A DNA stretch of 45,303 nucleotides, taken from a virus. Where the stretch lies: the IMG/VR virus record IMGVR_UViG_3300044713_000071, positions 1-45,303 of that record, one strand, 5' to 3'. Shown one piece after another: positions 2,895 to 10,741 of this stretch. The notes beneath the pieces were generated by a model. The model saw nothing but the letters and a program-made list of their open reading frames with translations, had not been told where the DNA came from and did not search any database. Within the stretch, counting starts at the first letter, position 1, and each line of letters opens with the position of its first letter. The position numbers and the translations under genes were made by a program.

Positions 2895-3593
2895 TCATAT
2901 TGTCGAAAAGTCAGGCACGTCCGAAAGATCAATGTGCTCCGCATTTCGAAACAGCCGTGAAGCGATTCGCCGGTCAAACTTTTGATGCCATTCGGCTGGC
3001 GGAAAATTTGTGCTGATAAAATTCCACTTGAATTCTCGGCGAGAAAGAATCAAGTAAAGCTGTTCGCGCCCGAATCCACTGGGGTCGTGCTCGGCTCCGA
3101 TGTCATCAATCAGGGCGATGTTGCAGTGCATCAAGTCATCGACTATACCAATTTCCTGACGCTTCTGAAATTCGTCAACGACGCCTGGCCAGTGAGCATA
3201 GCGGGCCGAAGCAAGCCCTATGGCGTCATCAAGGTCCGCACGAACGACCATCGGCATGAGCTGAGCCGTATGGTTAACCCAATCCCGAACGCAACGCATA
3301 GTGTGCGTTTTACCGACGCCGTTTAATCCATAGAGCACGCAGGTGCGCCCACGCACAGGATTGCGGGCCAAGAGTACGCACGAGGCGTAAATCGCTTCAC
3401 GCGCTTTCTGGAGGCGCGGATGCGTGATTTTCATCGGCAGCCATCTGTTGAGCCAGTTCTGCCGCTTCTCGCTCCTCTCGCTCGCGTTGAGCACGCGGCT
3501 TGGCTGTGGCGTAGGGGTTGTATCCCTCAGCTTCTCCGCAGACTCCAGCGTTTCGCGGGTTAGGTTTTCGATTGATTTGAGTTCGTTTTTCAT
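2895..3593 (-). CDS. DnaC/IstB-like replicative helicase loader
   Basis: A 232-residue AAA+ ATPase. Walker A is GLNGVGKT (89-96), Walker B NIALIDDIG (158-166), sensor 1 ISTN (193-196) and a likely arginine finger lies in FDRRIASRLF (206-215). By family this would load the host replicative helicase at the phage origin. A good ribosome site (GGAAGGA) sits upstream of the ATG at 3593. The N-terminal 65 codons overlap the 3' end of the initiator gene in another frame; an alternative start is Met54 at 3434. Fits a loader/initiator pair of the lambda P/O type. Confidence 0.88.
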   Translation of the reverse strand: MKNELKSIENLTRETLESAEKLRDTTPTPQPSRVLNASERSEKRQNWLNRWLPMKITHPRLQKAREAIYASCVLLARNPVRGRTCVLYGLNGVGKTHTMRCVRDWVNHTAQLMPMVVRADLDDAIGLASARYAHWPGVVDEFQKRQEIGIVDDLMHCNIALIDDIGAEHDPSGFGREQLYLILSRREFKWNFISTNFPPAEWHQKFDRRIASRLFRNAEHIDLSDVPDFSTI

Positions 3594-4338
3594 TGTCGTA
3601 TTTTCCTTCCATTATTTTTGCAACCGAATCCGGTTGGATGAACCAATCAAACGAGGCTTTCCAACCTCGGTTGTTGTCACCGCTTAAAAAATCGGATTTG
3701 GGGATGCGCTGCATCGCCGACTCCCAGTTCGTTTTGAAAAAGTCATCACGCAGCCTGCTTTCGAGTCCACGGCGCCGCTTGTCTGAAAGTATCAAGCATT
3801 GTGGAAGTTTCGTGTTCATCGCGTTTTTGTTCCACGTCTCAAAGACAAGAGCGAGGGGGGCGGATTTTCCGCCGATGCTTGTAGCCTTGTCCTTGTCCTT
3901 GTCCTTGTCCTTGTCCTTGTCCTTGTCCTTGTCCTTGTCCTTGTCCTTGTCCTTGGGGGTAGTAGCTACCCTATCGATAGCCTTAGCATAGGGTATCGAT
4001 AGGGCATCGATAGGGTATGAAATGCCATGTTTTTCGAGTAATTTAAACACGGATTGATGAACGCGGCTCTCTCTAACCAATTCACCGAATTGGAAGGCAA
4101 TGAATTTCTCAACAAGAAATTTACGCGGTGAAAGCTCCCGAAGTCTTGATTCAAGTTCCTTTAAATGCGTCGAATTTATTTCAATTCCAGATTGAAAAGT
4201 AGCCAGTCCTAAATCCGGCTCGACAACGCCAGCGTTGTCGCAGTGGTCTAGAATCCAATACCAAAGGAATTTAGCAGAGGGTGATAAAGAGCGGAACCAC
4301 GGGTCATTCCATTTGCCTGTTTCGGTGAATCTTTTCAT
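3397..4338 (-). CDS. Replication initiator/organiser-like protein with KD repeat
   Basis: A 313-residue protein from the ATG at 4338, because phage relatives start with the pattern MKRFTxTxKWxDPWFRxLSPxxKxLW. The frame is open further up to 4539 (ATGA overlap with the methyltransferase), which would add 67 atypical residues; I judge that extension less likely. The N-terminal half is winged-helix-like (Lin1244/DnaD-type phage replication proteins). The middle holds a Lys-Asp dipeptide repeat of about 12 units. The C-terminal WKASFDWFIQPDSVAKIMEGKYDN is typical of the family. It precedes the helicase loader, consistent with origin binding and loader recruitment. Iteron-like repeats lie inside the gene. 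Confidence 0.8.
   Translation of the reverse strand: MKRFTETGKWNDPWFRSLSPSAKFLWYWILDHCDNAGVVEPDLGLATFQSGIEINSTHLKELESRLRELSPRKFLVEKFIAFQFGELVRESRVHQSVFKLLEKHGISYPIDALSIPYAKAIDRVATTPKDKDKDKDKDKDKDKDKDKDKDKATSIGGKSAPLALVFETWNKNAMNTKLPQCLILSDKRRRGLESRLRDDFFKTNWESAMQRIPKSDFLSGDNNRGWKASFDWFIQPDSVAKIMEGKYDNEKRTQINRKPNPRNAGVCGEAEGYNPYATAKPRAQREREEREAAELAQQMAADENHASAPPESA
3885..3955. repeat. Hexanucleotide tandem repeat coding for Lys-Asp
   Basis: Eleven perfect CCTTGT units followed by CCTTG (plus strand), read on the minus strand as AAG GAC codons. Being six bases long, gain or loss of units keeps the frame, so the linker between the N- and C-terminal domains of the initiator can vary in length. 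Confidence 0.95.
3967..4017. other. Iteron-like cluster inside the initiator gene, candidate origin
   Basis: Three copies of ATCGATAG at 3973, 3995 and 4006, spaced 22 and 11 bp, that is two turns and one turn of the helix. The outer parts form a perfect 12-bp inverted repeat (TACCCTATCGAT at 3967-3978 against ATCGATAGGGTA at 4006-4017). Placement within the initiator gene resembles the lambda origin in gene O. Origin function is inferred. Confidence 0.5.
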
Positions 4339-4535
4339 CCAAATACACTGAGCGTGCGCCCAACGTTGAAACCAGGCACAGTGAACCCCGCGAGGAGTCC
4401 GCAGAGCAAGCCTTCCGTTCGGCGCACGTTCAGAATATTTGAGAATTGGATTATCACTGTTTTTGCCGGGTTTCAATCGGCTGAAATGTTCGACAAACTG
4501 CCTGTTACTCGAACGCCCGCACTGTACTGCAACTG

Positions 4536-5222
4536 TCATGGTGGTGTCAAGGGTTTATTTTCAGAAAATTGAAGAACTTCTTGGCTCATTCTTTTGGCCG
4601 CGATTTCGCAATATTGTTCTTCAATCTCTATCCCGACCGCTTTACGTCCTAAATCTTTGGCCGCTCGAAGGGTTGTGCCGCTTCCCATGAAGGGGTCGAC
4701 AATGGTCAGCGAATCAGGAGCGAGGCTAAGGCACCATCGCATAAGCTCCACCGGCTTTTGGGTCGGATGCACGCGAGGAATGCAGTGCTGCTCACCGCCT
4801 CGAATCATCCCATTCCAAAGGAAGTCAAATTTACGAACGGCCTTGGAAAGATTCGTCCACGCGAGTTCACAATCTGCAAAATCTCCGCTGTTCAACTTGT
4901 TCCAAACAAGCCAGCATTTTGATGGCGGGAAATGGAAATAATTGCCCCCCCACACAATCGAATGCAAAGCCTTCTCCACGACTCTCTGAATTAAAATACG
5001 GTCTGCTGGTTCTGCGTCCCATTCGGAGGTTTCGGCATATCGAGTCACTAAAGGAATCTTGGCTTTAAGGCGACCCCGGGAGCTTCTTTTGACAGGGTTC
5101 GACTCGCGAAGTCCATACGGCGGGTCAGTCAGCAGTAAATCGAACTTGCCAAGTTGAGGTACAATTTCTCTAGAATCTCCATGAAAAATCGTAACGGCTG
5201 AGTCTTGGTAGTAAGGTTTCAT
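4536..5222 (-). CDS. DNA methyltransferase (N4/N6 amino type, D12-like)
   Basis: A 228-residue SAM-dependent DNA methyltransferase. The catalytic motif IV is DPPYG (33-37), a HPTQKP segment lies at 152-157, and the SAM-binding motif FMGSGTT is at 178-184. Catalytic motif before SAM motif is the beta-class order of N6-adenine or N4-cytosine enzymes. DPPY rather than SPPY leans to adenine but does not decide it. No restriction enzyme is next to it, so it is an orphan modification enzyme, probably protecting phage DNA or affecting replication control. The start overlaps the upstream small gene (ATGA). Confidence 0.92.
   Translation of the reverse strand: MKPYYQDSAVTIFHGDSREIVPQLGKFDLLLTDPPYGLRESNPVKRSSRGRLKAKIPLVTRYAETSEWDAEPADRILIQRVVEKALHSIVWGGNYFHFPPSKCWLVWNKLNSGDFADCELAWTNLSKAVRKFDFLWNGMIRGGEQHCIPRVHPTQKPVELMRWCLSLAPDSLTIVDPFMGSGTTLRAAKDLGRKAVGIEIEEQYCEIAAKRMSQEVLQFSENKPLTPP

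Positions 5223-10037: not shown

Positions 10038-10741
<704 letters not shown>

Follow-up and report, generated by a model that had tools for sequence, protein, structure and literature searches.

The analysed DNA, hereafter the window, spans one complete IMG/VR virus record, 45,303 bases in length. It carries a gene for a likely replication initiator, which contains two repeated elements and is followed by a gene for a helicase loader (Table 1). The C-terminal part of the initiator matches PHROG 10469 (DnaD-like loader, 1.3e-23), PHROG 19658 (initiation protein, 2.9e-23) and PHROG 345 (O-like, 5e-18), and a Pfam search gave no match to any initiator family. These matches, and a DnaC-like loader gene adjoining as P adjoins O, agree with the initial annotation, which had called the gene a likely replication initiator. 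The loader also matches DnaC/DnaI-type NCBIfam models, with scores below their cut-offs; read from its first ATG, its ORF overlaps the 3' end of the initiator gene by 197 nt (3397-3593) in another frame, and the real start may lie further inside the ORF. In an AlphaFold model of the initiator, most of residues 70-175 (the winged helix) reach a pLDDT of 90 or more, and the stretch for which repeats and KD tract code comes out disordered, with a pLDDT of 42-54 for residues 181-220. When the winged-helix alignment was run by hmmsearch against solved structures, no match emerged, and Foldseek with the initiator model returned nothing significant; VIA structure comparison gave weak winged-helix matches, among them the pSK41-type RepA (4pt7, Z 5.7), tied with unrelated winged helices.

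The start of the initiator gene is overlapped by 4 nt by a DNA methyltransferase gene (4536-5222), distantly CcrM-like, and the recombination genes upstream on the same strand encode an Erf-like annealing protein and a YqaJ exonuclease; the head genes are located on the other arm. Across the 45 kb of the window there are 23 GATC versus 207 GANTC sites, which suggests GATC avoidance.

Table 1. Genes and sequence elements at the initiator locus of the window.
Feature	Position	Strand	Remarks
DnaC-like AAA+ helicase-loader gene	2895-3593	-	next gene downstream of the initiator; PHROG 50 (DnaC-like helicase loader), 3.8e-18
Initiator gene	3397-4539	-	380 aa; winged helix ~68-175; disordered linker ~175-225, encoded by the putative origin; DnaD/O-like C-terminal part
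Hexamer tract (GGACAA)n	3884-3955	-	reads KDKDKD; proposed opening/loading element; (TTGTCC)11 on the + strand at 3887-3952
Iteron cluster	3967-4017	-	encodes YPIDALSIPYAKAIDRVA; a perfect 12-bp inverted repeat (3967-3978 / 4006-4017) forms its ends
Inverted half-site (+ strand CCCTAT)	3969-3974	-	single inverted copy
Half-site ATAGGG, copy 1	3988-3993	+	11 bp to copy 2
Half-site ATAGGG, copy 2	3999-4004	+	exact 11-bp steps to copies 1 and 3
Half-site ATAGGG, copy 3	4010-4015	+	11 bp from copy 2

A scan of the whole window located plus-strand copies of ATCGATAG at 3973, 3995 and 4006, in steps of 22 and 11 bp; the one further copy in the 45.3 kb is on the minus strand at 3971 and overlaps the cluster. 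Chance alone would be expected to give 0.87 copies in the window, and four copies were reached in 1 of 100 shuffles. The left arm of the inverted repeat, TACCCTATCGAT, is the exact reverse complement of the right arm, ATCGATAGGGTA, and arms lengthened to 17 nt remain 88% complementary. The three copies and the perfect inverted repeat, both reported in the initial annotation, were therefore found again exactly. Because the site is coding, we chose synonymous recoding as the null model, shuffling the codons of each amino acid within the initiator gene in 5,000 trials. The 84 nt before the KD tract contain 30 pairs of direct and inverted 7-mer repeats, against a null mean of 0.93 and a maximum of 11, and none of the recodings reached the observed value; this rules out the repeats as a chance product of the amino-acid sequence. 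The helical phasing that had been claimed is real at 11 bp, with a refinement: the cleaner unit, and the better description of a functional one, is the half-site ATAGGG, whose copies follow one another at exactly 11 and 11 bp. A perfect hairpin, GGCGGATTTTCCGCC, also lies within the initiator gene at 3859-3873, just downstream of the hexamer tract. Cumulative GC skew, which had been named as a check, has no extremum near 4 kb and tracks gene strand throughout the window; it is uninformative as an origin test and was dropped, and composition lends the origin no support.

The hexamer tract in the window is ~50% GC, and tract and flank together are ~40-50% AT, which rules out the KD tract of this virus as an AT-rich element and makes it less than evident that the tract would melt readily. 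Nor can (GGACAA)n by itself be taken as a specific origin mark: (GGACAA)4 turns up in unrelated phage genes as well, and only a handful of the 51 viral loci with (GGACAA)n fall in winged-helix initiators. The window has a second and much longer hexamer array, (GGCTCT/GGCTAT)n, on the minus strand at 10321-10720, in an ORF without a PHROG match. No palindromes adjoin it, and it therefore serves as a control, in that hexamers alone do not mark an origin. Two near-identical viral contigs (L102, L118) have an unrelated ORF that encodes a very long DQDQ...DKDK repeat.

Relatives were collected in three scans. The first yielded 80 relatives matched on initiator residues ~65-190 with patterns that included KDKDKDKD, and is thus KD-biased; the two others used patterns of the winged-helix domain alone to offset this sampling bias. 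Removal of near-copies at 75% identity in the winged helix left 94 dereplicated initiator genes. A scan of genome_contigs for relatives found none. Under synonymous shuffling of the 88 genes with a tract, silent-site inverted repeats peak in the ~60 nt before it (2.78 versus 0.49 in the null) and are flat elsewhere. Direct repeats at a lag of 11 amount to 380 pairs where 14.8 are expected, and are present in 68 of these genes; the excess continues at 22 nt (114 versus 5.6), 33 nt (60 versus 14.6) and 44 nt (15 versus 2.9). The 11-bp-phased repeats stand at the same place even in relatives with 25-38% overall protein identity and in divergent winged-helix initiators, and so persist despite protein divergence, as the initial annotation had proposed to check. 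The letters of the iterons vary by lineage (AGGGT, GGGGC and AACAGTT types), with position and phase constant, a behaviour that would be expected of binding sites co-evolving with their initiator.

A tract with a 6-nt period follows the winged helix in 88 of the 94 genes; applied to the regions coding for the winged helix and for the C-terminal part, the same search scored 1 of 94 and 1 of 45. A clear tract is missing in five to six of the 94 relatives. Initiator relatives of this kind are L054, L057, L066, L263 and L290, some of which apparently lack the repeats too; where both are missing, the origin may have been relocated. The coding-strand hexamer is GGACAA in the window and RGATAA, GGATAT, GGTAAT, GGAACA or AGAAAA among relatives, and averaged over lineages it is R-G-A-(T/A/C)-A-A, with G in 96% at the tick position. 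The exact RGATAA triple occurs in the records of 10 of 15 relatives, there confined to one place each. The tick falls on codon position 1 in 79 of the 88 genes, on position 2 in eight and on position 3 in one. Besides the prevalent KDKDKD, the tract is consequently read as DMDMVMVK (GGATAT, GGTTAT), GQGQ (GGACAA), GNGN (GGTAAT), GIGN, KGKG, KAKA, NKNK, EQEQ or RE.

Well-supported branches of the winged-helix tree make three independent frame changes the minimum for register 2. The plainest example is L233 compared with L234-L240. One additional nucleotide directly ahead of the repeats puts the two sides in different frames, and the next 48 columns are ungapped with 42-43 identities; just upstream, in the same frame, 30-33 of 46 nt are identical. 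Across iterons and tract the peptide changes from LKGYPKGIHTPQEKEKDK to ERVSNGYEYPLRKGKGKG. The frame is restored after the tract, as both flanks keep recognisable protein sequence of the family, the C-terminal part of L233 resembling that of L002; for this to be a sequencing error, two indels would have to compensate each other. Repeats and tract are kept despite a frame shift that changes the protein, and the conserved thing is therefore the DNA itself. The initial annotation had named relatives with the amino acids kept and the nucleotide repeats lost as evidence against an origin; the opposite was found. It had also placed the KD repeat next to the iterons. The adjacency holds, but the tract is not a mere neighbour, since it is part of the conserved DNA element. 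A prophage initiator from a bacterial genome (L378, 2501-2960) has intact iterons and an intact (AAAAAG)n, read as KRKRKR, and its frame stops shortly after; it is either a broken gene or a split initiator.

The iteron pattern of the window, used alone as a query, matched 17 viral loci, 14 of which, by inspection, lie at the same place in a second, divergent family of winged-helix initiators. In most of these the iterons are followed by purine-rich six-base tracts (AGAACA, GGAACA, GGGAAA, AGAATA, GGAGCA). An independent sampling of this family, blind to the repeats and guided by the winged helix alone, gave 24 dereplicated genes, in which lag-11 repeats number 102 versus 3.9 expected and are found in 16 genes. 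Its tracts are 74% A, 21% G, 2% C and 3% T; some have G at every third base and not strictly at every sixth, and one is (AATAAC)n. The G tick thus appears as a rule in the window's own family and as a looser tendency outside it. Among annotated phages, several with a different N-terminal domain also have mid-gene repeats followed by short-period tracts, and Pseudanabaena phage Pan5 has CCCCATAAATGGGG and a KDKDKD tract. Three further contigs (L095, L097, L101) contain tandem ATACCCTATCGAT without a long initiator ORF across it; in L095 and L097 this is at the end of the fetched stretch, and the repeat of L101 may be a non-coding site.

Comparison of the relatives shows both elements to be conserved as DNA, as far as can be judged from sequence, in a fixed order and with periods of 11 bp and 6 nt. 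An origin of replication is very probably located at this place. It is also likely that the site works as a phage origin of the lambda O type inside the initiator gene, composed of 11-bp-phased initiator sites and a repeated opening or loading tract, and we consider it fairly likely that the tract is functional as DNA; strand-specific recognition of the hexamer is possible, if somewhat doubtful. From this arrangement we infer binding, melting, strand choice and helicase loading as follows. The winged-helix domain would bind half-sites 11 bp, one helical turn, apart, such that several molecules align on one face of the DNA, and half-sites phased in this way would suit an initiator oligomer. The bound initiator would strain the DNA until the adjoining tract, downstream in the gene and with G at every sixth base of the coding strand, opens. 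The initiator or the DnaC-like loader next to it may then hold one strand of the tract as ssDNA, in a repeated register, and the loader would go on to load the host helicase. As the (GGACAA)11 of the window is half G+C, simple AT-richness is not the conserved property, and the repeated register suggests that one strand is held in a sequence-specific manner. The KD peptide would be mostly incidental, a disordered linker in which origin DNA can be accommodated.

A different reading keeps the iterons as initiator sites and origin, and has the KD tract selected only as a charged flexible linker, with a six-base period due to slippage of a dipeptide repeat. K, D and E make up ~83% of tract residues across all lineages, with both K and both D codons in use, and protein-level selection may act in the 79 of 88 genes whose peptide is mostly K/D/E; the occurrence of (GGACAA)4 in unrelated phage genes and the second array of the window, devoid of palindromes, point the same way. 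We nevertheless regard this as unlikely: hexamers of the same kind are read as GQ, GN, GI, KG, NK, DM/VM, EQ and RE, with three or more independent changes of frame, the shift between L233 and L234-L240 leaves 42-43 of 48 nt intact, and exchanges of K to M and D to V in the tract keep the G tick and not the chemistry. Codon choice in the KD lineages is moderately shifted in the tract as well (AAG 0.50 versus 0.37 in the comparison, p = 0.006; GAT 0.80 versus 0.61, p = 5e-5). Selection for a charged linker at the protein level probably coexists with selection on the DNA. It is likewise improbable that the purine-rich coding strand works through transcription, with its purine-rich RNA and the pyrimidine-rich template in a stable R-loop by which the origin would be opened or primed. 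Purines make up 81% of the tract's coding strand in the 88 genes, with 4.5% C, and 95% in the second family, and the orientation of the tract to transcription is constant; but the orientation is constant because the site sits in a gene, and an R-loop would not explain the six-base G register or its upkeep in the T-containing GGATAT, GGTTAT and GGTAAT.

These same hexamers bear on the other strand of the tract, (TTGTCC)n or (TTATCC)n, which might be a ladder like the DnaD-recognition element, bound by the DnaD-like C-terminal part of the initiator, for which the PHROG match speaks. Bacillus DnaD requires 5'-TnnT-3' pairs in ssDNA (PMC10201434), and (TTGTCC)11 on the plus strand of the window, with T at every third nucleotide, provides them as a continuous ladder. 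Some relatives lose them: the DM/VM and GN lineages (GGATAT, GGTTAT, GGTAAT) have no T ladder and keep the G tick, so that a universal ladder was rejected and we consider this reading quite improbable. As to the palindromic cluster, initiators often autoregulate, and the cluster could serve to regulate initiator expression, as an autoregulatory operator or as a hairpin in the mRNA, and be no origin. As single-stranded DNA the cluster folds at -12.6 kcal/mol, against -4.6 in shuffles. A regulatory role in place of an origin seems very unlikely to us, as L030, L255 and others have mainly direct 11-bp repeats and no comparable hairpin, the site sits in the middle of the gene, a long way from its start, and in nearly all cases abuts the hexamer tract, and the matching place holds the proven origin of lambda and the annotated one of 80alpha.

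The preferred reading, an origin of phased initiator sites and a repeated tract, has its closest precedent in lambda, where the iterons likewise lie in the middle of the initiator gene O, with the opening tract immediately after them on the coding strand and the helicase-loader gene next door. In gene O, the four iterons give way to a coding-strand stretch rich in A/G and poor in C, and O also binds the ssDNA of the opening region (PMC7466680). Lambda differs in that its iterons are 18 bp long at steps of 20-24 bp and its tract is AT-rich, whereas the window has half-sites in 11-bp steps and a tract with a six-base G tick and ~50% GC. In terms of homology to lambda O, the C-terminal part of the window initiator matches PHROG 345 and nothing in Pfam. 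The lambda O/origin architecture claimed in the initial annotation stands for the repeated sites inside the initiator coding sequence and for the loader gene directly downstream, but not for the AT-rich region beside the iterons, the place of which is occupied by the hexamer repeat; our claim is therefore that the site works like the lambda ori, and not that it is one. In Staphylococcus phage 80alpha, a putative rep_origin is annotated inside the replisome-organizer gene, with repeats, then a short-period tract, and a DnaC gene downstream; its N-terminal domain and repeats are different, and its tract is of the ACTAATAAT type. The RepA_N plasmid pSK41 has, according to the part of the published account considered here, a RepA whose N-terminal winged helix binds boxes located centrally in its own gene, whose origin-encoded middle is a dispensable linker and whose C-terminal part contacts primase; a hexamer tract goes unmentioned in that part (PMC5703833). 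The window initiator has no Pfam hit to RepA_N, and the tie noted above holds for its VIA match.

Origins within initiator genes are thus already known from lambda, the 80alpha annotation and pSK41 (PMC5703833), and the kind is not new. A literature search of incomplete coverage found no prior description of the hexamer tract or of the 11-bp rule across divergent initiators, and the frame-independent six-base tract provisionally appears to be new. Phage origin opening elements are usually described just as AT-rich. Single-strand binding in such regions has precedents in Rep proteins and lambda O, which bind one strand of their opening regions, and in DnaD with its TnnT pairs (PMC10797057, PMC7466680, PMC10201434). 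In bacterial oriC, the DnaA-trio and the DnaD recognition element are likewise short repeated ssDNA motifs beside double-stranded binding sites, which serve strand-specific opening and loading (PMC10201434, PMC10797057). The DnaA-trio is a three-base motif by DnaA boxes, and the window has six bases by phage iterons; no DnaA box was found near 3.9-4.0 kb in a scan of the window (nearest match at 2398), and with its period of six the tract is not a DnaA-trio. Tentatively, and with some doubt, we propose that the six-base G-tick tract is a general code for opening and loader landing beside 11-bp-phased iterons in at least two divergent families of phage initiators. If so, it would account for the KDKDKD, KEKEKE, DMVM or GNGN linkers in so many phage initiators, and the six-base register, fixed and robust to frame shifts, would offer a recognisable and testable rule at the sequence level for locating the start of helicase loading in many uncultured phages, as a frame-independent counterpart of the bacterial DnaA-trio.
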